Source of the DNA: Limimonas halophila
GTDB lineage: Bacteria; Pseudomonadota; Alphaproteobacteria; Kiloniellales; Rhodovibrionaceae
Assembly: GCF_900100655.1 (NCBI RefSeq)
Contig: NZ_FNCE01000004.1
Span: forward strand, 157,577-211,990
Length of the DNA: 54,414 nucleotides
Direction of reading: 5' to 3'
Positions 6,551 to 53,877 of this stretch are shown piece after piece; the stretch's first letter is position 1, and each line of letters starts with the position of its first letter. Position numbers and translations under genes: made by a program. Under the pieces are notes generated by a model. It was not told where the DNA came from. It saw only the letters and a program-made list of their open reading frames with translations, and did not search any database.

Positions 6551-7228
6551 CTAACTATTGTTTGCATGGGTGCAATCACGATATTGATCGCCGTTGAGCG
6601 CCATTCGTTCTAAAATGTTCGTATCGTTTGCATCAAAAATCGTCTGACGCCCCATTATATCGATATTATCACTTTTTAAAACTATTGTATGAATAGTCCA
6701 GTGCTCGCTTTCAATGCTGCTATCTGCAATAAAAACGTGGTCCCCCAAGCTCGAAATTAGATGTCCTCGAATGATACTATTCTTCTCCCCGCGTTTAAAA
6801 GCGAAACAATATTCATTATAAACAGCTTTGGTAACCGAAGGCGTGCCGTGGAAAAACCAGACAAAAACAAGTCCAATAATAAGTCCAATAAAGGAACCTA
6901 TTGCCCGAGATCTGTAACCTTTGTTTATTTTTTTAGCCATAAGCCCGCACAAGTAAAAAATTCCTATGGAGATAACGAGTATGCCGACATTGCGAAAGGG
7001 AGCAAACACTAAATCACTAACTGTTGCATAATAAGCAAAATTTATACCATAAGATTGTAACTTAATATATTCAAGAACGCCACCATATATGGCGACAATA
7101 AAATAAAATAAGGGTGCGACTGTAGCGCCTTTTTCCAGTATTATAGATCTTATAGAAAACGTCTTGGGTTGACCTTCGTTGTCCTCATCACCGGTACGAT
7201 TGAATCGTCCGCCGTTGCCTTGGCTCAT
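6551..7228 (-). CDS. Unknown membrane protein in AT-rich island
   Basis: I do not recognise this protein. The likely start is the ATG at 7228 after GGAGAGG, giving about 225 residues; GTG 7255 or TTG 7252 behind a GGAGG are alternatives. A short polar N-terminus is followed by three predicted membrane helices (about residues 35-55, 70-97 and 108-127) and a soluble C-terminal part of about 95 residues rich in beta-type sequence. Base composition is far below the surrounding DNA (many AAA, TTT, ATA codons), which points to recent transfer. It has no obvious operon partner. Confidence 0.65.
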   Translation of the reverse strand: MSQGNGGRFNRTGDEDNEGQPKTFSIRSIILEKGATVAPLFYFIVAIYGGVLEYIKLQSYGINFAYYATVSDLVFAPFRNVGILVISIGIFYLCGLMAKKINKGYRSRAIGSFIGLIIGLVFVWFFHGTPSVTKAVYNEYCFAFKRGEKNSIIRGHLISSLGDHVFIADSSIESEHWTIHTIVLKSDNIDIMGRQTIFDANDTNILERMALNGDQYRDCTHANNS

Positions 7229-7255
7229 TTCGCATTCTACCTCTCCAGTCAACAC

Positions 7256-7528
7256 ATACCTCCGAACGCTAAACTGCTCACGTTATGCTAATAGCATATT
7301 TAATACTAACTTCTTCTAAACCTTTATCTATATCTCGTCAAACGTTTTTTGCTTTGCATGTATTAACACATATCATTTTTTATAATCTATATTATTCAAA
7401 AACGTTGCAACATATATGCTTAAATACGGAAGTATATTTATTCATGGCACGGTGGCGAGTTTGTATATTATAATAATATCGGTTTTCAGAAGTAAAACTA
7501 CTGACAATCCGATGCTAATTCTCGGTGA
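7256..7528. other. AT-rich gap without a credible gene
   Basis: This 273-base stretch is strongly AT-rich. Short open frames here (for example 7285-7473 on the plus strand) have no ribosome site or domain. It probably holds the promoter of the leftward membrane-protein gene, since TATAAT-like hexamers are abundant, but no single site stands out. Confidence 0.5.
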
Positions 7529-7753
7529 TTACAATGTCTCTATTTCTGGCGGCACGACGCCGCCGTTGTCGAGGAAGGTGACGCCGGCGGCCTCGAAGGT
7601 GGATTTGAGCAGGAAGAGGGTGCCGGGGTTGGTGTTTTCGCCGCGTTCGATGCGGCGGACGGTGTTTTCGTGAACGCCCGCGCGCTCGGCCGTGACGCGC
7701 AGGCTCCAGTCCAGCGCGGCGCGCGCCATGCGGATTTGCCGCCCGGTCAACAT
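7529..7753 (-). CDS. Small XRE-type helix-turn-helix protein
   Basis: 74 residues starting at an ATG preceded by GCGAGG. Residues about 3-55 form a Cro/C1 helix-turn-helix: TGRQIRMARAALDWSL, then AGVHENTVRRIERGENTNP. This single-domain form often occurs beside or within mobile DNA or as an antitoxin, with a C-terminal tail of about 15 residues (VTFLDNGGVVPPEIE) seen in many alphaproteobacterial copies. The frame extends upstream to 7909, but the extension looks non-coding. GC content matches the host better than its neighbours. The target is not known. Confidence 0.75.
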   Translation of the reverse strand: MLTGRQIRMARAALDWSLRVTAERAGVHENTVRRIERGENTNPGTLFLLKSTFEAAGVTFLDNGGVVPPEIETL

Positions 7754-7870
7754 GCGGCCTCGCGTAGCCGGGGCGGCGCGTGGTGTCAAAGCGACAACGA
7801 CGGCCTGACGGCGCTGTACGAGCGGGCCGCCACGATGCCGGCCGTGCCGTGGCAGGGCGATGGAAACGAA

Positions 7871-7913
7871 CCTTACCATGTAAGGCGGATTTGCCGCCGA
7901 AGGCGGCAATCCG
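7871..7913. repeat. Palindromic non-coding element
   Basis: Two adjacent inverted repeats occur here: CCTTA/TAAGG around a five-base centre at 7871-7885, then a stem of CGGAT and TGCCGCC pairing with GGCGGCA and ATCCG (7886-7913, one bulged T, GAA loop). They lie in the gap between the HTH gene and the split nuclease gene. They could be a terminator for the leftward nuclease gene or an extragenic repeat. Confidence 0.55.
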
Positions 7914-8031
7914 ACATGACCGCACGCGCCGAACCACCGGTGCGGAAAGGCGGCTTGCCCGCCGCGCGCCGTCTATGGAGCGCGTGGCGGGCGAAGCCGC
8001 CGCACGGTCGCTTTTCCGCTGCCTTATGCGT

Positions 8032-8900
8032 TCAGATACGTAAGTTCTTTACGGGAACAAAAGGGGAGTTGGTCTCGGCACTGTATCGAACTTTTTCCTC
8101 AATGATCGTTTTCAGATTCATCCGATTCTCTAAGCATTGTTCAATGTCAGTTCCGTCCATGCACACAAATTTTGTCGGGCGTCCGCTAGATATAGCTTCT
8201 AGACTTCCGCTCGCAAAACCTGAATAGCTTACAAAAATTCCTCTTGCCCAATCTGGTCGTCCTATAAGCTTAGAATGGAACTTTTGGAGCTCTTCGACCC
8301 CAATTTTTTTGTATGCCACTTGGCTTCGAGCAAATATGGCGTATGTCCTAGGACAAAGCTCCCGTCGATTTCTTCGTTTTTTAGGCGAAAAGCTGGATTT
8401 GGCGAAAGCCGAAAAAAGTCAAAAAGCTCATTTAAGAATTGCTCAAACTCGCGCCCGCGGCGAATGCTCTCCATTTTGTCCATGTCATGGAGCCATTTAA
8501 TGAAGTATTCATTCTCGTCCTGATTCTGCGGAATTTGTTCTATAATTTTATCAGATTTTAAAGTTTTTATGCGTATGCCAATTCTTTCACATTGTTCGAC
8601 GACCTTTAAGACTTGATCTTGCGTGATTTGCCCCCTGTTTTTTGGCTTCTCTAGACCGCGAAGAACAATATTGGTGACGAGGTTTGCAAATATTGCTTTG
8701 TCCGTTTGTATTGCGTTAGAAAGCAGAAGAAATAGTCCATAAGACTTGCTGTGGACGTCAGGAATAAGATGACGGGCGCTGAGGTCTTCAGCGACAGCAG
8801 GAATGGTGTAATAATATTTACCCTTTGGGTGTTTGGTCCAAGGGAGAAAATCATAGAGCGTATAGACAAGTGAATCCATATCGCGCTTTCTGTACACCAT
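8032..8900 (-). pseudogene. Restriction-endonuclease-like gene split by a -1 frameshift at an A7 run
   Basis: Two overlapping minus-strand frames (8900 to 8262, and 8319 to 8032) read as one protein of about 289 residues if the frame changes by -1 at 8304-8310. Frame one ends EAKWHTKK then runs into a 12-residue nonsense tail; frame two continues IGVEELQKFHSKLIGRP. The join restores a PD-(D/E)xK nuclease-like core: an EFEQFLNELF helix, then EEIDGSF, then YLLEAKW (Asp and Glu-x-Lys), then a GIFVSYSGF strand as in Mrr-type domains. Composition is AT-rich like the island. It may be a decayed gene, a read error, or true programmed frameshifting. Confidence 0.7.
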
Positions 8901-8949
8901 ATGTCAATACTCTCTATAAGATAATATGTTTTGAGTTCCTCATATAAGG

Positions 8950-8998
8950 ATTATCGTAGGCGATGCGGTGGTTTGCAACCACCGCATCGCTGATAATC
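8950..8998 (-). terminator. Long hairpin abutting the nrdJ stop codon
   Basis: A 14-bp perfect stem (GCGATGCGGTGGTT at 8960-8973 with its complement at 8977-8990, TGC loop) is extended by a further 7-bp stem (GATTATC at 8950 with GATAATC at 8992) across a small bulge. It begins one base after the nrdJ stop and marks the sharp switch from AT-rich island to host-like DNA. Transcription termination is likely, although no clean T-run follows on the nrdJ strand. Confidence 0.7.
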
Positions 8999-8999
8999 G

Positions 9000-11900
9000 T
9001 CAACTACACCCGGTCGTGCTCCCGCAGGTGACGCACTTCAGGCAGGTGCCGTTGCGGACGAGGGTGAAGTTGCCGCAGGAATCGCAGGCGTCGCCCTCGT
9101 AGCCCTTGAGGCGGGCTTCCGCCATCGCGCGGTCGCGCCCCGAGCCGCCGGTGGACGTGCCGCCGGACGGGCGGGTGGTCGTGCTCACCGTGGCCGTGCC
9201 CGCGCTGGCGGCCGCCGAGCCGCCAACCGGGCCGCCGCCACCGCCGGCGGCGCGGGCGGTCGTCTCGCCGCCCTGGTTGCCGTGATAGACCGTCAGGGCG
9301 TTGCGCACGTAGCCGGTGGAGGCGTAGCGGCGCACCGTTTCCTGCACCTCGTCCTCGCCGAGCGCCGACTGCTCGCCCTCGCCGACGGCGTCCGGCCAGG
9401 TGTCGCTGGGCGAGACGTGGGCGAGGTCGTCGCGGCCCAGGTAGCTCACCGCCAGCTCGCGGAAGATGTAGTCGAGCAGCGAGGTCGCCATCTTGATGGT
9501 GTCGTTGCCCTCGACCATCCCCGAGGGCTCGAAGCGCGTGAACGTAAACGCGTCCACGTACTCCTCCAGCGGCACGCCGTACTGCAGCCCGATCGAGATG
9601 GCGATGGCGAAGTTGTTCATCAGCGAGCGGAAGGCCGCGCCCTCCTTGTGCATGTCGATGAAGATCTCGCCCAGATCGCCGTCCTCGTACTCGCCCGTGC
9701 GCAGATACACCTTGTGGCCGCCCACGTTGGCCTTCTGCGTGTAGCCCTTGCGCCGGCCGGGCAGGCGACGGCGCTCGGCCCGCTTCTCGATCACGCGCTC
9801 GACCACGCGCTCAGTGATCATCTGCGCGCGCTCCTGGGCCGGGGCCTCGGCCACCGCGTCCGCGACCTCCTCGGCGTCCTCGTCCTCGTCGTCCGCGATC
9901 AGCGAGGCCGCCAGCGGCTGCGACAGCTTGGAGCCGTCGCGGTACAGGGCGTTGGCCTTGAGGCCGAGACGCCAGGACAGCTTGTAGGCGTCCTTGCAGT
10001 CCTCGACCGTCGCCGCCTTGGGCATGTTGATCGTCTTGGAGATCGCGCCCGAGATGAACGGCTGCGCCGCCGCCATCATGCGGATGTGGCTCTCCACCGA
10101 CAGCGAGCGCGTGCCCTTGCGCCCGCAGGCGATGGCGCAGTCGAACACCGGCAGGTGCTCGGCCTTCAGGTAGGGCGCGCCCTCGACCGTCATGGCGCCG
10201 CAGCAGTAGGTGTTGGCGGCGTCGATGGCCTCCTCGCTGAAGCCGAGCGCGGCCAGCATGTCGAAGCCGATGTCGTTCAGCTGGGCGTCGGTGAAGCCGA
10301 GCGTCTGCTTGCAGAACACCTCGCCCAGCGTCCACTTGTTGAAGGCGAAGCGGATGTCGAAGGCGCTGCCCAGCGCGCCCTCCAGGTTCGCCAGCGCCTC
10401 CTCGGTGAAGCCGACCTTGCGCAGGGCGTCGTGGTTCACGCCGGGCGCGTTCTCCAGCGTGCCGTTGCCGACGGCGTGGCGGACGATGGCCTCGACCTGA
10501 TCCTCCGGATAGCCGAGCTTCGCCAGCGCCTCCGGCACGGTGCGGTTGATGATCTTGAAGTAGCCGCCGCCGGCCAGCTTCTTGAACTTCACCAGGGCGA
10601 AGTCGGGCTCGATGCCGGTGGTGTCGCAGTCCATCACCATGCCGATCGTGCCCGTGGGCGCGATCACCGTGGCCTGCGCGTTGCGGTAGCCGTGCTCCTC
10701 ACCAAGCTCCAGCGCGCGGTCCCAGGCGGCCTTGGCGGCCTCGCCCAGGTTGCGGTCGGGCAGGTTGGCGTGGTCCAGCGCCACCGGCGCGTGGGTCAGG
10801 CCCTCGTAGCCCGCCTCGGCGCCGTGGGCCGCGCGGGTGTGGTTGCGCATCACCGCCAGCATGGGCTCGCGGTTCTCCGCGAAGCCGGGGAAGGCGCCCA
10901 GCTCGCTCGCCATCTCGGCGGAGGCGGCGTAGGACTCACCCGTCATCACAGCCGAGATCGCGCCGGCCATGGCGCGGCCCTGCTCGCTGTCGTAGGGCAG
11001 GCCCTCGGCCATCAGCAGGCCGCCCAGGTTGGCGTAGCCCAGGCCCAGCGTGCGGAAGCGGTAGGACAGGCGCGCGATCGCCTCGGAGGGGAACTGCGCC
11101 ATCATCACCGAGATTTCGAGCGCCACCGTCCACAGCCGCGTGGCGTGGCGGAAGCCCTCCACGTCGAACCCGGCCTCGCCGCGGAACGGCATGAGGTTGA
11201 TCGAGGCCAGGTTGCACGCGGTGTCGTCCAGGAACATGTACTCCGAGCACGGGTTGCTGGCGTTGATCCGCCCGGAGTTGGGGCAGGTGTGCCAGGCGTT
11301 GATCGTGCTGTCGTACTGGATGCCCGGATCGGCGCAGGCCCAGGCGGCGTAGCCGATCTTATCCCACAGCTCGCTGGCGTTGACCGTGCCGGCGCGGCTG
11401 CCGTCCACGCGGTTGATCAGCGGCCAGTCCTCGCCGTTCTCCACGGCCCGCAGGAAGGCGTCGCTGACGCGCACCGAGTTGTTGGAGTTCTGGCCCGAGA
11501 CGGTGTTGTAGGCCTCGCTGTCCCAGTCCGTGTCGTACTCGGGGAACACCATCTCGGTGTAGCCCTGGCGCGCGAACTGGATGACGCGCTGGACGTAGTT
11601 CTCCGGCACCTGGGCGGCGCGGGCGTCCTTGATGGCCCCCTTCAGGTCCGGGTTCTGCTTGGGATCGAAGGCGGCCTCGCCGGACTCCCGCCACGCGTTA
11701 CAGGCGGCCATGACGGCGTGCATGTGCTGCTTGCACTGCTTGGAGCCGGTGACGAGCGCGGCGACCTTCTGCTCCTCGACCACCTTCCAGTCGATGTAGT
11801 CCTCGATGTCGGGGTGGTCGACGTCGACCGTGACCATCTTGGCCGCGCGGCGCGTCGTGCCGCCGGACTTGATCGCGCCCGCCGCGCGGTCGCCGATCTT

Positions 11901-44791: not shown

Positions 44792-44808
44792 TTGGCATCC
44801 ATTTTGCT
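44792..44808 (+). promoter_or_regulatory. Sigma-54 (RpoN) -24/-12 promoter
   Basis: TTGGCATCCATTTTGCT matches the YTGGCAYRNNNNTTGCW consensus at every specified position except the R (C here). The invariant GG and GC are separated by exactly ten bases. It lies 127 bases upstream of the repeat-protein ATG. An RpoN activator with a GAFTGA loop is encoded at the other end of the locus. Confidence 0.75.
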
Positions 44809-44935: not shown

Positions 44936-46675
44936 ATGCAGTATCGCAGTCTTCTTCTGGCCGGTGTCGCGGCCTTCGCGCTCGGCGTAACCGGGCCCAT
45001 GGCGGCAAATGCCGAGGTTAACGGGCCCTTTCCGCCGCCGTTCGGCGGTCAGGGCGACGAGAACATCGTCCGCGACAACGCCAAGAACGCCAACAACAGC
45101 GGCAACGGCAACGACGCCAACAGCGGCCGCGACAACGTCGGCCTGACCAACAGCCAGAACGTTGAGACGGACAGCAGCACCAGTCTGCGCAACAGCCGCA
45201 ACAACAACGGCAACAACCGCGGGAACACGGACGTCGACCGTGCCAACGGGAACAACCGCGGGAACACGGAGAACGTGGGCAACACCGCGGATTCCAACAA
45301 CCGCGCGAACGGGAACAATCGCGGGAACACGGATATCGACCGCGCGAACGGGAACAATCGCGGGAACACGGATATCGACCGCGCGAACGGCGACAATCGC
45401 GGCAACACCGAGAACGTCGGCAACACCACCAATTCCAACAACAACAACGGCGACGACCGCAACAACCGCATTTCCGGCAACAACAACACCGACGGCAACC
45501 GCTCCAACGACGGGCACGAGAACAACCACCTGGAGAACTACAAGTCGTCGGGCAGCGCCAATGTCGTCGGCAACAGCAACAGCCTGAACCTGTCCGGCAT
45601 GACCAACGTGAAGATGGTCAACGAGACGGACCTTCAGCAGACCAACGGCGGGCTGAGCCTCTACGTCGGCGGCACCGGCGGCGACGGCGGCTACGCCTCG
45701 CAGTCCGCCGGGAACAAGGCCTACAACGACGGCGAGGGCGGTGACGCCAGCAACGACATCAAGGGCGATGTCTCGTCCAAGGCCGAAAGCGAGACCGATC
45801 TGGAGCAGGACGCCGGCGACGGCGACTACGGCGAGGCCAGCGCCGACGCGACCGGCGGCAACAAGATCAAGGACGGCAACGAGGGCGACGCGTCCGGCAA
45901 GCAGTACACCCAGTCGGGCAGCAAGTCGGCCAGCTACACCAAGGGTGGGCAGGATCCGAACTCCACCGCCCGGTCCAACGGCAACGCGGACAGCGATTCC
46001 ACGGCCCACAACCAAAGCCCGACCACCTCGACCGCCAACGCCAACGGGAACGCCACTGGCGGCAGCAACGACACAGCGAACGCGCGCGGGGGCGGCAACC
46101 GTGATCGGGCCAGTGCCAACGACACGGCGACCGGCCGTGGCGGCGGCGCGACCGCCAGCCCCGGTGGCAACGGCAACGCCAAGAGCGGGTCCGGCGCGGA
46201 TTCCAGTCCCGGTTCTGACTCCGTCGCGCGCGCCGACCAGGGCGTGAACGGCGGCTCCAACTCGGCCCCGTCCAACGCCCAGGCGGACGCGGATTCCGAC
46301 GTCAACGCCGATCAAAGCCAGTCCGGCGGCAACGCCAGCAGCGGCGACGGCACGGCCGGTGTCGGCGGCGACGGCGGCAGCAACAGCGGCTTCGCCAGTG
46401 CCGGGTCGGGTGCGGGCGACACCAACGCCAGTGCCAGCGGCAACGGCGGCGACGGCAGTGCCAGCAACCGGCAAACCGCCAGCAATGCCAGCAACGGTGG
46501 TGCCAACGGCGGCGACCAGACCAGCGTCCTGCGCTCCGGCAGCGTCAGCTCGATCAGCATGAGCAACCTGCGCGGCGTGCAGGCCCAGAACGTCAACACC
46601 GGCGTGGGCAACAACATGACGCAGAGCGTCAACATCAACGCCCACACCTCCTTCAACAACACGCCGGGCCAGTAA
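44936..46675 (+). CDS. Secreted Asn/Gly/Ser-rich repeat protein, putative fibre subunit
   Basis: 579 residues from the ATG at 44936. Residues 1-26 form a signal peptide ending MAANA. Residues 45-190 are dominated by Asn, Gly, Arg and Asp, with tandem 13-residue units GNNRGNTD[VI]DRAN (92-104, 126-138, 139-151) and longer GNxRGNTENVGNT variants (105-125, from 152). A middle part has alternating strands (SANVVGNSNSLNLSGM), then a long Gly/Ser/Asn/Asp/Ala stretch without Cys. The C-terminus (554-570) carries NTGVGNNMTQSVNINAH, resembling an amyloid-type repeat. I infer an extracellular fibre or matrix protein; no orthologue is recognised. Confidence 0.75.
   Translation: MQYRSLLLAGVAAFALGVTGPMAANAEVNGPFPPPFGGQGDENIVRDNAKNANNSGNGNDANSGRDNVGLTNSQNVETDSSTSLRNSRNNNGNNRGNTDVDRANGNNRGNTENVGNTADSNNRANGNNRGNTDIDRANGNNRGNTDIDRANGDNRGNTENVGNTTNSNNNNGDDRNNRISGNNNTDGNRSNDGHENNHLENYKSSGSANVVGNSNSLNLSGMTNVKMVNETDLQQTNGGLSLYVGGTGGDGGYASQSAGNKAYNDGEGGDASNDIKGDVSSKAESETDLEQDAGDGDYGEASADATGGNKIKDGNEGDASGKQYTQSGSKSASYTKGGQDPNSTARSNGNADSDSTAHNQSPTTSTANANGNATGGSNDTANARGGGNRDRASANDTATGRGGGATASPGGNGNAKSGSGADSSPGSDSVARADQGVNGGSNSAPSNAQADADSDVNADQSQSGGNASSGDGTAGVGGDGGSNSGFASAGSGAGDTNASASGNGGDGSASNRQTASNASNGGANGGDQTSVLRSGSVSSISMSNLRGVQAQNVNTGVGNNMTQSVNINAHTSFNNTPGQ
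45311..45388 (+). repeat. Perfect 39-bp tandem duplication inside the fibre-like gene
   Basis: 45311-45349 and 45350-45388 are identical base for base and each encodes GNNRGNTDIDRAN. Identity at synonymous positions, when the neighbouring units at about 45209 and 45248 have diverged codons, indicates recent duplication. Confidence 0.9.
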
Positions 46676-46696
46676 CCGCGGCGACCCATCGGTGGA

Positions 46697-46723
46697 CCGG
46701 CGGGGCGTTTCCGGCCCCGCCGG
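46697..46723 (+). terminator. Strong GC hairpin between fibre-like gene and next gene
   Basis: CCGGCGGGGC (46697-46706) and GCCCCGCCGG (46714-46723) form a perfect 10-bp stem with a seven-base loop, 21 bases after the stop codon. No T-run follows. It may partly terminate or protect the upstream message so that the first protein is made in excess. Confidence 0.55.
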
Positions 46724-46759
46724 CTTTCCGCCGAACCAGATCAAAGGAGGACGTGCGGG

Positions 46760-47128
46760 ATGATTCGTGTGGCGTTATGGGCCTGGGCGCTGGCCGTCGG
46801 AACGGGGCTCGCCGCCGCGTCCGGTCCGGTCCAGGCAGGCGACGCGGACAGCACCTTCGCCGGGCTGACCGAGATGAAGACCGGCGAAATGGCGGCCTCG
46901 ACGGGGCGCGCCGACAGCGGTCCCATCGCGCTCGACCAGCGCAACCTCACCGACCAGCTCGGTCAGAACCTCAACAACGAGAAAGTCAACATCGGCGGTG
47001 TGTCGGTCAGCGGCAGCATCGGGGACACGACCATCGACAACACGCGCGGAACGACCTCGGTGATGTCGAACACCGGCGACTTCGTGAACATGAACTACAG
47101 CGCGAGCTACAACATCCACCTCCAGTGA
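46760..47128 (+). CDS. Small secreted protein with leader-like and fibre-like motifs
   Basis: 122 residues from an ATG with AAAGGAGG. A signal peptide ends near residue 26 (GPVQA). Residues 33-49, FAGLTEMKTGEMAASTG, align with the post-signal motif of the 397-residue protein downstream. The body alternates polar and hydrophobic residues (VNIGGVSVSGSIGDTTI) and the C-terminus, NTGDFVNMNYSASYNIH (104-120), aligns without gaps to the C-terminal motif of the large repeat protein. There is no Cys. I infer a minor subunit or nucleator. Confidence 0.75.
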   Translation: MIRVALWAWALAVGTGLAAASGPVQAGDADSTFAGLTEMKTGEMAASTGRADSGPIALDQRNLTDQLGQNLNNEKVNIGGVSVSGSIGDTTIDNTRGTTSVMSNTGDFVNMNYSASYNIHLQ

Positions 47129-47156
47129 CGGACCGGAGACCGGACCGGGACAGCGC

Positions 47157-47876
47157 ATGCGGGGCGCGGCAAGCATGAAGGGCAGCATAACGGCAGCCGC
47201 CATCGTGGCGTTCGGCCTCGTCGCCACTGCGCTCAACGGAGCGCAAGCGGGCGGGGTGCGGATCGTCACCGGCAGCGGGCTTTCGGTTACCAAGCAGGTC
47301 ACGAGCTGGAAGGAGGCCAAGTTCAAGAACGTCGTTCCGCAGCAATACGACTACAGCTGCGGCTCGGCGGCGATCGCGACCCTCTTGACCTACCACTACG
47401 ACCGGCCGACCGACGAGCGCCAGGCGTTCAAGCAGATGTTCCGCAGCGGCGACCGCGAAGCGATCCGTGAGCACGGCTTCTCGCTGCTGGACATGAAGGC
47501 CTATCTCAAGTCGCGCGGCCTGAATGCGGACGGCTTCCGCATGTCGCTGTCCCAGCTCCGCGACATCGGCGTGCCCGCGATCACGCTCGTCACCACCAAG
47601 GGCTACCGGCACTTCGTCGTGGTGAAGGGCGTTCGCGAGGACGACGTGCTGGTCGGCGACCCGGCGCTCGGGCTGAGGACGCTGACCCACGCCCGCTTCA
47701 AGGAGATCTGGAACGGCGTGACCTTCGTCGTCCGCGACGACGTGAAGCTCGCGCGCAAGCATTTCAACCGCGTCACGGAGTGGCGGCTGCGGCCCAAGAC
47801 CCCGTACCAGTCCACGGTGGACCGGTACGGGCTGTCGACCTTCTCGCTGCTGCATCCGGGGCGCAACGAGTTCTAA
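47157..47876 (+). CDS. Exported C39-family cysteine peptidase
   Basis: 239 residues. A signal peptide (about 1-31) is followed by a C39-type papain-like domain with QQYDYSCGSAAIATLL (Cys68, with oxyanion Gln62/63), GYRHFVVVKGV (His152) and VGDPALG (Asp168). It has no ABC-transporter domain, unlike bacteriocin exporters, and should act in the periplasm. FapD in the Pseudomonas functional-amyloid operon is also a stand-alone C39-like protease. Neighbouring secreted proteins with leader-like motifs are its probable substrates. The start may be ATG 47157 or 47175. Confidence 0.85.
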   Translation: MRGAASMKGSITAAAIVAFGLVATALNGAQAGGVRIVTGSGLSVTKQVTSWKEAKFKNVVPQQYDYSCGSAAIATLLTYHYDRPTDERQAFKQMFRSGDREAIREHGFSLLDMKAYLKSRGLNADGFRMSLSQLRDIGVPAITLVTTKGYRHFVVVKGVREDDVLVGDPALGLRTLTHARFKEIWNGVTFVVRDDVKLARKHFNRVTEWRLRPKTPYQSTVDRYGLSTFSLLHPGRNEF

Positions 47877-47913
47877 CGCCGGCCGGCCCCAGACCGGCGG
47901 CCAGGAGGATGGA

Positions 47914-49107
47914 ATGCGTGCCATGGCAACCACGTTCGTGCGGCCTCGCGGCCGCCGACTTCCCCGCAGAACCCGGCTCGCGGCGACGGCTGTTATGGCC
48001 GCCGTCATCGCGGGGCCGGCCGCGCACGCCGCCGCGCCGGACGACGCTTTCAACGGGCTGGACCCGATGTCCCCGCGGGAGCTGTCCGGCCACCGCGCGG
48101 GCATGAAGGTGGGGGGCCTTGAATTCGAGTTCTCGGTGAACGTGACCACCACCGTGGCTGAAAACGGGCAGGAACTCGGCGGCTTGTCCACACAGATCTC
48201 GCGCGACGTGCAAGGGCAGGTGCAGAAAACGGTGTCGCAGGTGGAAAGCCAGGTGAGCGAGGTTCAGGAGTCCGTTCAGGACGCCGTTTCCGGCATCCAG
48301 GACCGGGTGAGCGAGGCAACCGGCGGCGCCGCCCAGTCGGGCGACACGGCGAGCGACGCCACGGGCGGCAGCGGCGGGACCACAACCAGCCCGACGTCGC
48401 CCACACCCGGCGCCTCCGGAACCACGAGCCCGACCACGGGCGCGAGCGGTTCCACGGATGTCGCCTCGGGCACGACGGGCGCCACCAATCCGTCGACGGA
48501 CACGCCCTCGTCGCCGGGCACATCCCCCTCGACCTCGCCATCGACACCATCGACGCCGTCATCGCCGACACCGTCGACGCCCACGGCCGGCGGTTCGACG
48601 CCCGCCGGGGGCTCGGGGTCGGCGTCCGCCGGCGGCACCGGGACGGCCACGCAGCCCACCGATGTCGCCGGAACCACGCCGACCGCCGGCGAAACCGGAA
48701 CGGCGCCGAGCGGAGGAACAACGCCTTCGCCCGGATCGGGCGATACTGGCGCCACCGGCACGGGCGCGGCGGGGTCGTCAGCCGGATCGGGGACGCCGAC
48801 CGGCGAGCAGACCATCCAGCAGGCTGCCGCGAAGGTCGCGGAATCGCTGCCCTCCTCGCTCGAGGTCGAGGAAACCGGATCGGGGGCGGTCGCGCAGCTC
48901 GGCGACGGCAGCACGCGGATCGTGCAGAATGTCACCGACGAGCATGTCGGCGCGCTCGTCCAGAACACGGCGGACAACCGCACGATCAGCACAAACGTCG
49001 AGACGACGATCCGCGTCATGAACTTCAAGCAGCGGATGGCCGACTTCAACGTATCGCGCCAGGCGGCACGCATCGCTGACGCCGTGGCCCAGATGCGGTT
49101 GCGGTGA
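47914..49107 (+). CDS. Secreted protein with leader-like motif and Ser/Thr/Pro/Gly linker
   Basis: 397 residues from an ATG after AGGAGG. A basic N-terminus and signal peptide (about 1-40) precede FNGLDPMSPRELSGHRAG (46-63), which resembles a double-glycine-type leader and is followed by VGG (66-68). Next come a beta-type stretch (FEFSVNVTTTVAENG), a helical or coiled-coil part (VQKTVSQVESQVSEVQESVQ), and a low-complexity linker of S, T, P, G and A (about 140-300). A C-terminal domain has TRIVQNVTDEHVGALVQNTADN and a basic helix. The family is not recognised. It may be an adhesin-like or linker component of the matrix. Confidence 0.75.
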   Translation: MRAMATTFVRPRGRRLPRRTRLAATAVMAAVIAGPAAHAAAPDDAFNGLDPMSPRELSGHRAGMKVGGLEFEFSVNVTTTVAENGQELGGLSTQISRDVQGQVQKTVSQVESQVSEVQESVQDAVSGIQDRVSEATGGAAQSGDTASDATGGSGGTTTSPTSPTPGASGTTSPTTGASGSTDVASGTTGATNPSTDTPSSPGTSPSTSPSTPSTPSSPTPSTPTAGGSTPAGGSGSASAGGTGTATQPTDVAGTTPTAGETGTAPSGGTTPSPGSGDTGATGTGAAGSSAGSGTPTGEQTIQQAAAKVAESLPSSLEVEETGSGAVAQLGDGSTRIVQNVTDEHVGALVQNTADNRTISTNVETTIRVMNFKQRMADFNVSRQAARIADAVAQMRLR

Positions 49108-49114
49108 GCGAGCC

Positions 49115-49495
49115 ATGCAGCCGTGGCGGCCCACCACATTCCCCGGCATCCGGCGTGCTTGCGCGGGCCTGCGTGCGCCCCGGCCGGGGGTGCTGGCGGC
49201 CGCCGTGTTCATCGGGGGGCTCGCTGTCCCCGGTCCCGCCTCCGCCGGGGACGGCGAGAGCTTGTCCCTGGCCGGCATGGAAGCCGGCCCGGAGCGCCTC
49301 ACGGCGTCGGAATTGCGCGCAAGCCGGGCAGGCAGCCCGATTGCGCGGCCGGTCGCGCCCAACCTCGCGCCCGACGGGACGGCCGTGGCGGTCGTCCTCT
49401 GGGACGAACTGGGGCCGGTGAAAAGCGGCCAATCGGCGCAATCGTCCAGGCGCACCGGCAATCGCGCCTCCCTGACCGTCCGCGTCACGCGCTGA
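49115..49495 (+). CDS. Small secreted protein of the matrix locus
   Basis: 126 residues, starting seven bases after the preceding stop. A long basic N-terminus and signal peptide end near residue 44 (GPASA). The mature part begins with SLAGMEAGPE, then LTASELRASRAG (62-73), matching the ELxxxRAG element of the 397-residue protein. A short C-terminal region (VAVVLWDELGPV, NRASLTVRVTR) looks beta-type. There is no Cys and no recognised domain. It probably belongs to the same operon, and is a candidate C39 substrate or minor subunit. Confidence 0.65.
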   Translation: MQPWRPTTFPGIRRACAGLRAPRPGVLAAAVFIGGLAVPGPASAGDGESLSLAGMEAGPERLTASELRASRAGSPIARPVAPNLAPDGTAVAVVLWDELGPVKSGQSAQSSRRTGNRASLTVRVTR

Positions 49496-49669
49496 CGTCC
49501 GCGCCCGCCGCGCGGGCTCGCCCGAGGCTTCGTACCCCTTTCGAGGCGAATTGACCACGGTCTCGGTGACGGGCACGCTTTTCAAAATTCGGGTGAAAAA
49601 GACTGGCCGTGCCGCGCACGCGTCGGTGGGCCGCGACGGCAGGAGCGCAAGATTGCACCAGGAGGGCTT

Positions 49670-50887
49670 ATGATCGGGGGGACGACGGCTGCGCACACGA
49701 GTGTTGTGGCCCTGCTCGCCACGACGATCCTCACCGCACCCGCGGCGGCGCAAAGCGGCGACACCGCCAGCCGCTTGGCGTTGAACCACGAGCTGTCCTG
49801 GCGGGAGATGGTCGCACCGGGCTTCCGGGACAGCCTCGATCTGGATCCGGCGCCCGGCGACCGCCAGCTTGCCCAGGCCACCAACGGGGCCAGCCAACAG
49901 GCCGCGGGCCAGACCGGCGGTCAGTCCGGACAGGAAAAGCGGCCCGACGTGCCCACCATCCGGGAGCGCGGCGGCGTCCTGACCTCGCCCGGGGCGCTGG
50001 TCATCGAGCCGTCGGTGGAGTTCCAGAACGACAACGTCTCGCGCTTCATCGCCAACGGCGTGCAGATCATCGACACGGCTTTCCTGGGCGTCATCGAGGC
50101 GACCGAGGTGGACCGCAACGCCATCACAAGTTCCATCACCGCCCGCTACGGTGTCACCAGCCGCTTCGAGGTCGAGGTCAAGGTCCCTTTCGTCTACCGC
50201 GACGAGGAACAGACCAACACCGTCGTGGAGCAGAACTCGGAAACCGTGACGACGAGCAATCTGAGCCAAGGCGATCTGGGCGACATCGAGTTCGCCGGCC
50301 ACTACCAGCTCACCTCCGGAACCGGCTTCCTGCCCGTAACGGTCGCCAACCTGCGGGTGAAGAGCACCACGGGTGAAGGCCCGTTCGAGGTCCCGCGCGA
50401 CGCCAACGGCGTGGAGACGGAGCCGACCACGGGCTCGGGCTTCTGGGCGGTCGAGCCCAGCCTGACGATGCTGGTTCCCTCCGACCCCGTGGTTTTCTAC
50501 GGCAACGTCGGCTACCTGTTCAATTTCGAGCGCGACGTCAACGAAACCTTCGGGAATCAGCAGGGCCAGCAGGGCGGACAAACGACGATCGGGGAGGTGG
50601 ACCCCGGCGACACCGTCCGCCTGGGCTTCGGCATGGCCTTCGGCCTGAACCAGCGGACCTCGCTCTCGCTCGGCTATCAGCACGATTTCATCCGCCAGAC
50701 CGACACCGAGGTCAACCAGCAGTCCCAGACGTCGGAATCGCTCCAGGTCGGCTCGCTGACCCTCGGGACGAACTACCAAGCCAGTGAGAGCACCGCGATC
50801 AACGTCAACATCCAGGCGGGCGTGACCGAGGAAGCCCCCGACGTGCGCCTGCTGGTCCGCGTGCCCATCCAGTTCCAGGTCTTCTGA
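49670..50887 (+). CDS. Outer-membrane beta-barrel protein, candidate fibre export porin
   Basis: 405 residues from an ATG after AGGAGG. A signal peptide ends ILTAPAAAQ (about residue 28). An N-terminal extension includes LSWREMVAPG (42-51) and a Gln/Gly/Ala-rich stretch (65-90). From about residue 105 to the end the sequence is a run of amphipathic strands (ALVIEPSVEFQND, SITARYGVTSRFEVEVKVPFVYR, RTSLSLGYQHDF), ending VPIQFQVF with the terminal Phe of barrels. It resembles the MetA-pathway/phenol-degradation type barrel. By position it could play the part of FapF, the Fap secretion pore; that is inference. Confidence 0.8.
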   Translation: MIGGTTAAHTSVVALLATTILTAPAAAQSGDTASRLALNHELSWREMVAPGFRDSLDLDPAPGDRQLAQATNGASQQAAGQTGGQSGQEKRPDVPTIRERGGVLTSPGALVIEPSVEFQNDNVSRFIANGVQIIDTAFLGVIEATEVDRNAITSSITARYGVTSRFEVEVKVPFVYRDEEQTNTVVEQNSETVTTSNLSQGDLGDIEFAGHYQLTSGTGFLPVTVANLRVKSTTGEGPFEVPRDANGVETEPTTGSGFWAVEPSLTMLVPSDPVVFYGNVGYLFNFERDVNETFGNQQGQQGGQTTIGEVDPGDTVRLGFGMAFGLNQRTSLSLGYQHDFIRQTDTEVNQQSQTSESLQVGSLTLGTNYQASESTAINVNIQAGVTEEAPDVRLLVRVPIQFQVF

Positions 50888-51197: not shown

Positions 51198-51465
51198 CGG
51201 GCAGTGTTTGCCGTTGTTAACCAGACGGATTTGCGTGGCATTCGGATGATCCGCAGGAGGCGGTAGCCGCGTGGCCCGTGGGTGCAAGCCGCCTCATCCC
51301 CTCGACCGGGTTTTGGTCCGTTCGTGGCGCCCTGCTACCGCCTGTCCACCGTGGCTGGCCGCTGGCGCTTGCACCTATGATCGTTCCCATGGACGAGGCG
51401 GCAGCCGGCACGGACCGGGACGGCCGCCCCACACGCCATGGGAACCACGGCACAGGGTGGTACGC

Positions 51466-52638
51466 GTGACGGTTTCGCGGTCACGCCTCAAAGCGCTCGG
51501 GATGGACCGGCTGGCCGACTTGGTGCTCACCGTCGTGCACGAGCATCCGGCCGTGCTCACGACGGTGGAGGCGCACCTGGCGGCGGCAACGGCGGGGTCG
51601 GGTGCGGCAGACGCGCACGCCGCGCCGGATGGCCCGGAGGACGCCCACATGGTGGGGTCCGGGCCAGCCATGCGGCAGGTGTTCGACACCATCCGCCGCT
51701 GCGCGCGGTGCGACGCGCCGGTCCTGGTCACCGGCGAGAGCGGCACCGGCAAGGAGTTGGCCGCACTCGCCATCCATGAGCGCTCCGCAGCGGCCGAGGG
51801 CCCGTTCGTCGCCGTCAACTGCGGCGGGCTGCCGAGCGAACTGGTGTCGGCGGAGCTGTTCGGCCACGAGAAGGGGGCGTTCACCGGGGCGGTGTCGCAG
51901 CGCATCGGCCGGGTGGAGGAAGCCAACGGCGGTACCCTCTTCCTGGACGAAATCGGTGACCTGCCGCTGGATCTCCAGGCGCACCTGCTGCGGTTCCTGC
52001 AAAACGGCGTGATTCAGCGCGTGGGCGGCAACAGCAGCATTCGCGTTGACTGCCGGGTGGTCGCGGCGACCAACGTCGACCTGGAGCGCGCCGTCGCCGA
52101 GGGCCGTTTCCGCGAGGACCTCTTCTACCGCCTCGACGTGCTGCGCATCTGCATCCCCGCGCTGCGCGAGCGTCCCGAGGACATCCCGCAGCTGGCGCGC
52201 TACTTCACCGACCGCCTGGCGCGCGAGATGCAGCTGGGCGAGCGCCATCTCGCCCCGGACGCCGTAGATGCGCTGATGCAGCACACCTGGCCCGGCAACG
52301 TGCGCGAACTGATCAGCACGCTGCGCCGCGCCCTGGTCATGGCGGACGCGCAGACGCTGCACGCCGAGGACATTCAGCCGTACTGGAACGGCACCGGAAA
52401 TGGCGGTGGCCGTTCGCTCGGCGCGCCCGGCCATGCGGCGGCGAGCGGCAACGGGGTCGCGGCTGGAGCTGACGGGCCACCGCCAACCGACGAAGCCGCG
52501 TGCCTGCAGGCCGCGCTCGCCGAAACCGGCGGCAACGTCACGCGCACGGCCGAGCGGCTGGGCGTTTCCCGCGTCACCGTTTACAAGCTGATGCGCCGCC
52601 ACAACGTCAGCCGAGCCGGCGCCATGAACGGGTCCTGA
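51466..52638 (+). CDS. Sigma-54-dependent activator with Fis-type DNA-binding domain
   Basis: 390 residues from a GTG at 51466 (GTG 51457 also possible). The first 60 residues are not a receiver, PAS or GAF domain. The AAA+ domain follows: Walker A GESGTGKE (90-97), the sigma-54-contacting loop GAFTGA (137-142), Walker B GGTLFLDEIGD (about 155-165) and the arginine-finger region FREDLFYRLDV. A C-terminal Fis-type helix-turn-helix has GGNVTRTAERLGVSRVTVYKLM. With no input domain it may be controlled by amount or by a partner. It probably drives the promoter at 44792. Confidence 0.9.
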   Translation: MTVSRSRLKALGMDRLADLVLTVVHEHPAVLTTVEAHLAAATAGSGAADAHAAPDGPEDAHMVGSGPAMRQVFDTIRRCARCDAPVLVTGESGTGKELAALAIHERSAAAEGPFVAVNCGGLPSELVSAELFGHEKGAFTGAVSQRIGRVEEANGGTLFLDEIGDLPLDLQAHLLRFLQNGVIQRVGGNSSIRVDCRVVAATNVDLERAVAEGRFREDLFYRLDVLRICIPALRERPEDIPQLARYFTDRLAREMQLGERHLAPDAVDALMQHTWPGNVRELISTLRRALVMADAQTLHAEDIQPYWNGTGNGGGRSLGAPGHAAASGNGVAAGADGPPPTDEAACLQAALAETGGNVTRTAERLGVSRVTVYKLMRRHNVSRAGAMNGS

Positions 52639-53639: not shown

Positions 53640-53725
53640 GGAGGGGTACCCAAGCGGCCAAAGGGGGCGGACTGTAAATCCGCTGGCATTCGCCTTCGTG
53701 GGTTCGAATCCTACCCCCTCCACCA
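53640..53725 (+). tRNA. tRNA-Tyr (GTA)
   Basis: An 86-base class II tRNA with encoded CCA. The acceptor stem GGAGGGG pairs with CCCCTCC, the anticodon loop reads CTGTAAA (GTA), a long variable arm follows, and the T loop is TTCGAAT. The discriminator base is A. Confidence 0.97.
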
Positions 53726-53802
53726 CTTTCCCGCGTTCCTGAGACGGACTGACGACGAGCACCGACGACCAAAACGAGCGCGCACGCGGCGCGACGGCAT
53801 CG

Positions 53803-53877
53803 GCGGGTGTAGCTCAGTGGTTAGAGCACCAGCCTTCCAAGCTGGGCGCGTGGGTTCGATTCCCATCACCCGCTCCA
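53803..53877 (+). tRNA. tRNA-Gly (TCC)
   Basis: A 75-base tRNA with encoded CCA. The acceptor stem GCGGGTG pairs with CACCCGC, the D arm reads AGCTCAGTGGTTAGAGC, the anticodon loop CTTCCAA gives TCC, and the T loop is TTCGATT. The discriminator is T. Confidence 0.97.

Follow-up and report, generated by a model that had tools for sequence, protein, structure and literature searches.

RESULTS

A leader behind the Sec signals of a Fap-like operon

We analyzed a 54,414-nucleotide stretch of DNA from Limimonas halophila (termed the window), which harbors a Fap-like functional-amyloid operon at positions 44936 to 50887 of the plus strand. Six exported or outer-membrane proteins are encoded consecutively (an Asn-rich repeat protein, P0001 [122 amino acids {aa}], the C39 peptidase P0002, P0003 [397 aa], P0004 [126 aa], and the barrel P0005), followed by a sigma-54 activator. 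We consider it very likely that P0002, a FapD-type C39 peptidase, recognizes and cuts a double-glycine-type leader located directly behind the Sec signals of its partners. The leader motif occurs in one register in P0001, P0003, and P0004, is conserved in their relatives, and is linked to the peptidase; from these sequences we infer cleavage at the leader site and the order of the steps that we propose below.

The common register of the three proteins is hydrophobic(-12) xxx E(-8) [LM](-7) xxx [RT](-3) [GA](-2) [GR](-1), with M/E/L in P0003, L/E/L in P0004, and M/E/M in P0001 at positions -12/-8/-7. The residues at -2/-1, GG and sometimes GA in double-glycine leaders, are AG, AG, and GR in the window and mostly GG, GR, and GK in the relatives, and the form found overall is L(-12)xxxE(-8)L(-7)xxx[RT](-3)[GA](-2)[GRK](-1), 12 to 17 residues behind the Sec signal. 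The consensus of PCAT substrate leaders is L(-12)xxxE(-8)L(-7)xxxxG(-2)G(-1), in which the residues at -7 and -12 pack with the peptidase into a hydrophobic knot and the one at -4 probably determines specificity (PMC6959990; here and below, papers are cited from excerpts). Judged by its sequence, the window motif is a classical double-glycine leader placed behind a Sec signal, and not at the protein N terminus as in the PCAT substrates, whose leaders are read by the cytosolic C39 domain of an ABC transporter.

A preliminary description of the window had listed four shared motifs, summarized as [LM]-[ST]-x-x-E-[LM]-x(3-4)-G. It placed the strings and the proteins with their signal peptides correctly, and three of the four motifs (P0001, P0003, and P0004) are real. 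The fourth, LSWREMVAPG in P0005 (positions 49793 to 49822), was rejected as a leader since it does not fit the register, having no G or A at -2. Taken literally, the pattern matches the barrel only among P0001 to P0007, as P0001 has a K at the [ST] position and as P0003 and P0004 have five residues, not three to four, before the last G; it occurs once in all window open reading frames (ORFs) of at least 60 aa and in 0/524 control exported ORFs.

As controls, we used 524 ORFs that look exported, drawn from the same genomes (40 stretches) and from the window's genome (20 stretches). P0003 and P0004 match a regular expression (regex) built from the published C39 consensus (class A, with residue classes chosen after the loci were seen), which is matched by 10/524 controls and by 2/172 from the window's own genome. 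P0001 matches it only with P1 left free. When scored with a position-specific scoring matrix (PSSM) derived from other loci, the leaders of P0003, P0004, and P0001 were equaled or exceeded by 16/426, 39/426, and 23/426 controls, respectively. Strong evidence comes from homology, the leader being kept in register in the relatives of P0001, P0003, and P0004. Signal peptides were called with a home-made heuristic that misses proteins without K or R near the start, such as the window's barrel, and that misplaced the cut of P0001; the ORF lists contain shadow ORFs among neighbors and controls alike.

Conservation of the leader in FapE-type proteins

Relatives of the peptidase were found in 23/385 genomes of the class, in 39/398 of the phylum, and in 16/58 and 16/61 close relatives; these four sets share members, and the window's genome is counted in each. 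The surroundings of most relatives were covered, with wide flanks except for G071 and G157 in the class set and G436, G509 (two matches), G596, and G665 in the phylum set. A search of viral contigs gave three remote matches, and a contig search by protein gave one locus.

A profile of the proteins encoded directly downstream of the peptidase (the FapE position), from which the window was left out, found P0003 with an E value of 3.2e-8, the best of the 524 controls reaching 3.6. Its relative in locus L193, a 234-aa protein (phmmer, 1.1e-20), has FMGLEPIEEAELANHRGGLSVAGMKFDF where P0003 has FNGLDPMSPRELSGHRAGMKVGGLEFEF, and the L193 peptidase is 59 to 61% identical to P0002. The NCBIfam scan returned no FapE match for P0003. 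In true fap operons, the downstream protein matches NCBIfam FapE (2.2e-104 in L079) and shows the succession signal MKAIPLLAATCLAACLPAQA, leader ESLFRPIELKDQELAQLRGK, and mature start YVMPGRVISFG, with both cuts predicted; Pseudomonas FapE has the same leader, LKDQELAQLRGK. The NCBIfam FapE model also matches a 167-aa protein of L089, which belongs to the window's clade, over the signal, leader, and first strand (1.2e-4). In L089, a cassette of a 116-aa protein, the C39 peptidase, and the FapE-type protein is present twice (positions 6954 to 8503 and 9818 to 11367), identical over all 1550 bases compared.

We then evaluated the leader in proteins collected with a profile of the mature part of FapE-type proteins, which yielded 61 rows in 57 loci, corresponding to 58 ORFs and 57 distinct sequences. 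In every one of the 57, [LM] at -7, [RTH] at -3, and [GA] at -2 are found no more than five residues away from the predicted register; by chance, a given position would satisfy these three acceptance columns at ~0.25%. The test is not wholly independent, because a related regex had served to trim the seeds. Among the columns not used for acceptance, -12 is L, V, I, or M in 52/57 and -8 is E in 35/57, while -1 is G in 32, R in 15, K in 5, and another residue in 5.

The FapE type is strictly linked to the peptidase. A profile of the FapE-type N terminus (33 sequences, including that of the window) detected 37 places in 33 of the 398 genomes; all 33 fall within the 39 FapD-positive genomes, and every place lies at most ~1.1 kb from a peptidase gene. 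FapD-positive genomes lacking a FapE-type match are G387, G436, G442, G550, G619, and G728, among which G387, G550, and G619 carry instead a Fil-type leader such as MDDSSLSSVTGQ. The preliminary description had named a lack of conservation in homologues as an observation that would refute its reading; what we found is a leader conserved in register.

Other leader-bearing proteins

For P0001, phmmer identified a 121-aa protein in L193 (2.3e-10) and 116-aa proteins in L091 and L089 (1.3e-4 to 4.0e-4). The L193 protein has FAGLEPIGQSEMSEQRAM where P0001 has FAGLTEMKTGEMAASTGR, and the L089 counterpart of the leader core is MSADQLADSSGR. The case for P0001 rests on these pairwise relatives because a profile of the proteins at the upstream position does not recover it significantly (E value of 0.47, with two controls scoring better).

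P0004 belongs to a family of ten small exported proteins with an invariant V-x-L-W-D-E and an analogous leader (termed LWDE mini-proteins), located in the window at 49115 to 49495 and in L057, L081, L097, L196 to L200, L204, and L205. Its best pairwise relative reaches 2.3e-4. In the 385 genomes, where at most 12 candidates per genome were scored, the LWDE model gave three matches below 1e-6, one of them that of the window and one, in G184, outside the members of the model; all three have a peptidase within ~5 kb. Four further matches at 0.01 to 0.05 occurred in genomes without a peptidase match and look like chance.

In L073, three consecutive small exported proteins encoded 5' of the C39 gene (positions 8754 to 9949) each carry a leader of the LSxxELDxVTAG type. 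FapA-position proteins of L076, L078, L084, and L110 contain an internal string like LSDGDFASVASG or LGDADFARVSGG, which resembles a C39 site; L085 lacks the Gly of this string, and L080, L205, and L055 lack the string. Published mass spectrometry (MS) saw peptides throughout FapA.

The leader motif across C39 loci

Class A matched 23/239 exported neighbors of C39 genes versus 10/524 controls (p 4.1e-6), 16/123 with one peptidase per 60% cluster (p 1.2e-6), and 14/119 once the window was removed (p 1.0e-5). A second regex, class C, which was shaped on the data, matched 42/239 neighbors versus 5/524 controls. Unseeded motif discovery was run on 100 exported neighbors from 32 clusters, with one peptidase per 60% cluster, the window's cluster excluded, and low-complexity proteins dropped (19/119 neighbors and 98/524 controls). 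It returned [LV][SD]Dx[EV]Lxx[LQ]R[GN][GR]F, with a log-likelihood gain of 490 versus 258 to 279 in ten control samples of the same size, and in a leave-one-cluster-out evaluation, 39/100 proteins and 26/32 clusters passed the 1% control threshold. The leader is common to families that have no detectable homology outside it.

Screening gene by gene, we found a leader-bearing neighbor at 66/81 C39 genes with regexes made after the loci were seen, which 4/524 controls match, and at four more (L057, L061, L065, and L086) with a profile. The remaining genes are those of L067, L068, L074, L075, L090, L102, L108, L109, and L207 to L209, namely, two Fil-like genes, seven of clades with [FWH][DE] before the Cys, L102, and L108; a plausible leader missed by both screens can be seen by eye in L067 and L207. 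The flavor of the motif tracks the peptidase clades, with 16 label changes versus 42.7 in shuffles. We also considered coevolution at -1, where R/K versus G in FapE-type proteins tracks two peptidase clades, yet we rejected it: the pattern may mirror descent only, because the upstream substrates of the G clade also carry R or K.

The peptidase

P0002 matches Pfam C39 (4.8e-22) and, below the cut-offs, NCBIfam FapD (3.7e-45; score of 153.9 versus a cut-off of 330) and FilB (1.7e-37); the domain scan found no ATP-binding cassette (ABC) transporter domains in it. An alignment of P0002 with 34 relatives shows no variation at Q62, C68, H152, and D168, nor at G107, F108, S109, L111, and D112. In a profile alignment, the GFSLLDMK signature aligns with A55 to I59 of PCAT1, residues that hold the leucines at -7 and -12 of the leader (PMC6959990). 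The best solved match of the family profile is 6mpz, the double-glycine-motif protease domain LahT147 (7.1e-16).

According to the excerpts of PMC5557850, FapD functions in the periplasm and depends on its active-site Cys, the C38A variant abolishes FapC secretion, and FapD with an OmpA signal restores secretion in a knockout; in MS, FapE alone showed complete N-terminal processing. FapE has been proposed as a FapD substrate in the literature, in which, as far as the excerpts go, the substrate is also described as unclear or yet to be determined (PMC5557850, PMC6173800) and the Fap proteins are said to lack canonical C39 sequences (PMC5557850). We found no description of the leader, its register, its spread, or the further substrates in the main texts of the open-licence papers searched.

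The barrel and the repeat protein

P0005 matches NCBIfam FapF over residues 65 to 402 (1.7e-46; 158.9 versus a cut-off of 700) and FilC (9.4e-20). Because the FapD, FilB, FapF, and FilC matches all fall below the family cut-offs, the system is a distant relative of the Fap functional-amyloid system. A leader-like string is present in the first 70 residues after the signal in 6/70 barrel homologues (4/524 controls, with a slightly wider regex set) and within 150 residues in 7/70, so that, despite the misfit of the window's barrel, barrels in general may still carry a leader. The seven are in L056 (10185 on, plus strand), L060 (4984 on, plus strand), L064, L079, L093, L194, and L195; most of the strings sit at the end of a coiled coil, and L060 has a perfect LSDDELGEARGG. 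A paper from 2017 raised the possibility that the FapF linker is cut by FapD as well (PMC5557850).

The Asn-rich repeat protein, considered as a FapB/FapC candidate, has no match to the leader regexes and no family match in Pfam or NCBIfam. Its gene contains 39-base tandem repeats (positions 45300 to 45494). In the NCBIfam scan, P0001, P0003, P0004, and the repeat protein matched no named Fap family, and the seven window proteins scanned gave no match to a FapA model, whose presence in the library was not checked.

Operon layout and neighboring features

The features of the operon and its surroundings are compiled in Table 1. The -24/-12 pattern has two matches in the window versus 0.07 expected, the second of which lies inside a gene (46490 to 46505, minus strand). 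A screen of upstream regions for sigma-54 sites gave 25 sites on the coding strand and 17 on the opposite strand, with 1.35 expected; it proves little because both strands are enriched. Genes for tRNA-Tyr and tRNA-Gly lie at 53640 to 53877, and the ORFs listed across them are doubtful.

Table 1. Features of the Fap-like operon and its flanks (window positions)
Feature	Position	Strand	Basis or remark
Possible sigma-54 (-24/-12) promoter, TGGCATCCATTTTGCT	44793..44808	+	TGGCAY-N5-TTGCW, ~130 bases 5' of the operon's first gene
Asn-rich repeat protein, 579 aa, candidate fibril subunit, Sec signal	44936..46675	+	No C39 leader by regex
P0001, exported accessory protein, 122 aa	46760..47128	+	phmmer relatives in L193, L091, and L089
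P0001 leader core, MKTGEMAASTGR, aa 39-50	46874..46909	+	Predicted cut after aa 50, mature part of 72 aa
P0002, FapD-type C39 peptidase with Sec signal	47157..47876	+	Pfam C39, NCBIfam FapD
GFSLLDMK signature of the FapD-type family in P0002	47475..47498	+	Sequence alignment with PCAT1 only
P0003, FapE-type exported protein, 397 aa, low-complexity middle	47914..49107	+	FapE-position profile
P0003 leader core, MSPRELSGHRAG, aa 52-63	48067..48102	+	Predicted cut after aa 63
P0004, exported small protein, 126 aa, LWDE family	49115..49495	+	Ten-member family
P0004 leader core, LTASELRASRAG, aa 62-73	49298..49333	+	Predicted mature part of 53 aa
P0005, FapF-like outer-membrane barrel	49670..50887	+	NCBIfam FapF
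Sigma-54 activator (AAA+, Fis-type helix-turn-helix), possible regulator	51271..52638	+	True start uncertain

DISCUSSION

Proposed maturation by a periplasmic C39 peptidase

We propose that signal peptidase would first remove the Sec signal. The leader that remains (24 to 29 residues in P0001, P0003, and P0004) would use its -12, -8, -7, and -4 residues to dock in the C39 groove. Cleavage after -1 in the periplasm would then free the mature forms of the FapE-type P0003, the 122-aa P0001, and the 126-aa LWDE protein P0004, and the fibril subunit, not being a substrate, would be spared. Accessory factors kept inactive until the peptidase acts might prevent early assembly in the periplasm, and the cut may license FapE and the accessory proteins for export through FapF and for fiber assembly. 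The conservation across many loci, the linkage to the peptidase, and the excerpted FapD work (PMC5557850) lend strong support to the idea of the preliminary description that a C39-type leader would be recognized in the periplasm once Sec has exported the protein. The further suggestion of that description, that the maturation step triggers assembly, went beyond the data and is not supported.

Several points weigh against cleavage of such a leader by P0002. Several regexes, like the -7/-3/-2 filter, had been tuned on the very data to which they were applied, 6/56 seeds of the mature-part profile still held leader residues, which further limits the independence of that test, and no leader-bearing neighbor was found by the regex and profile screens at 11/81 C39 genes. 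Two of the window copies carry A at -2 and one carries R at -1, and G at -1 often gives way to R or K. The PSSM scores of the window copies are only moderate among the 426 controls and are equaled by the best sites of the repeat protein (21/426) and of a Gln/Gly stretch of the barrel (14/426), so that the window alone is weak evidence. Once the leader is omitted, the profile misses P0003 at an E value of 1 or better, so that the assignment of P0003 to FapE leans on the leader, the strand after it, and the L193 relative. On the side of the enzyme, the hydrophobic I59 of PCAT1 aligns with a near-invariant Lys of the FapD family, and an AlphaFold model of P0002 built with two sequences has a mean predicted local distance difference test (pLDDT) value of 35.5. 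Finally, the cut is predicted near residue 40, whereas the part of FapE unseen in the published MS extends further, to approximately residue 70.

The looseness of -1 among the 57 FapE-type proteins would also suit a leader that binds FapD and stays uncut, FapD then being a chaperone or tether like the inactive C39-like domains of some type 1 systems, which do exist (PMC5557850, PMC6173800, PMC5135000). We regard this as unlikely, as the Q, C, H, and D residues are invariant in P0002 and its 34 relatives, C38A abolishes secretion, and FapE was seen without its N terminus in MS (excerpts of PMC5557850). The location of the segment near the N terminus of exported proteins, in loci that encode 70 FapF-like barrels, could instead indicate a signal for secretion across the outer membrane that the FapF barrel recognizes, with a coincidental likeness to C39 leaders. 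The N-terminal targeting segment of curli CsgA has a comparable role. Such a signal is nonetheless quite improbable here: the window's candidate fibril subunit, which would be expected to cross the pore, lacks the segment, the register equals the PCAT consensus at -12, -8, -7, and -2, and the flavor of the motif tracks the peptidase clades, although common descent alone could yield the latter.

Common descent of one family, or plain chance, might also account for a functionless resemblance in the window, whose modest PSSM scores are no better than those of unrelated sites in two neighbors. The literal pattern of the preliminary description, which fits the barrel only, and the failure of the upstream-position profile to recover P0001 are in line with this. 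We nevertheless hold it to be highly improbable, since three families, with no homology detected between them beyond the leader, keep it in register among their relatives and since the FapE type is strictly linked to the peptidase; the conservation already disfavors chance. Cleavage of the leader by the FapD-type peptidase is the reading that we retain.

Beyond the window, it is probable, though less so than cleavage by P0002 itself, that one general code operates in Fap-type, Fil-type, and related loci of Pseudomonadota. In this code, an exported, stand-alone C39 peptidase would act in the periplasm on a double-glycine leader that follows the Sec signal, and its substrates would span at least five families (FapE, the 122-aa type, LWDE mini-proteins, FilA/DUF6160, and small LSxxELDxVTAG proteins) and some barrel linkers. 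The code of bacteriocin maturation would thereby have been transferred from a cytosolic to a periplasmic setting, where it would control the assembly of surface fibers, and it would constitute the missing substrate signal of FapD. FapD activity is needed to secrete the biofilm amyloid of Pseudomonas, and the conserved in-register leader names the likely FapD cut site to the residue and predicts which proteins are processed and which are not. A leader type known from cytosolic ABC exporters would be used after Sec export, and poorly annotated families (FilA/DUF6160 and the LWDE mini-proteins) would be linked to a common maturation step.

Comparison with known systems

Curli (Csg), also named in the papers, resembles the proposed system in that an amyloid leaves the cell through a pore of the outer membrane with the help of accessory factors; to our knowledge, it has no C39 peptidase and no such leader. 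The Fil "putative pilus" (FilA/FilB/FilC) likewise combines a stand-alone exported C39 peptidase with an exported FilA-type protein, which matches Pfam DUF6160 and bears a string such as MDDSSLSSVTGQ. The Fil peptidases form a separate clade, the residues at -4 to -1 are different, and no FapE-type protein was found beside a Fil C39 gene.

With PCAT1, ComA, and LahT, the window's system shares the register of the leader, the hydrophobic residues at -12 and -7, and the homology of the C39 domain (best profile match, 6mpz). It differs by its stand-alone, exported peptidase, by the Sec signal ahead of the leader, and by leader residues that can be R or K at -1 and are dominated by Arg at -3. Compared to the Fap system of Pseudomonas (FapA to FapF), the window has additional leader-bearing proteins of 122 and 126 aa, a low-complexity insert in its FapE-type protein, and scores far below the NCBIfam cut-offs for FapD and FapF. 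The two nevertheless have in common a FapD-type C39 peptidase, a FapE-type protein encoded directly downstream of it, a FapF-like barrel, and the leader of FapE.

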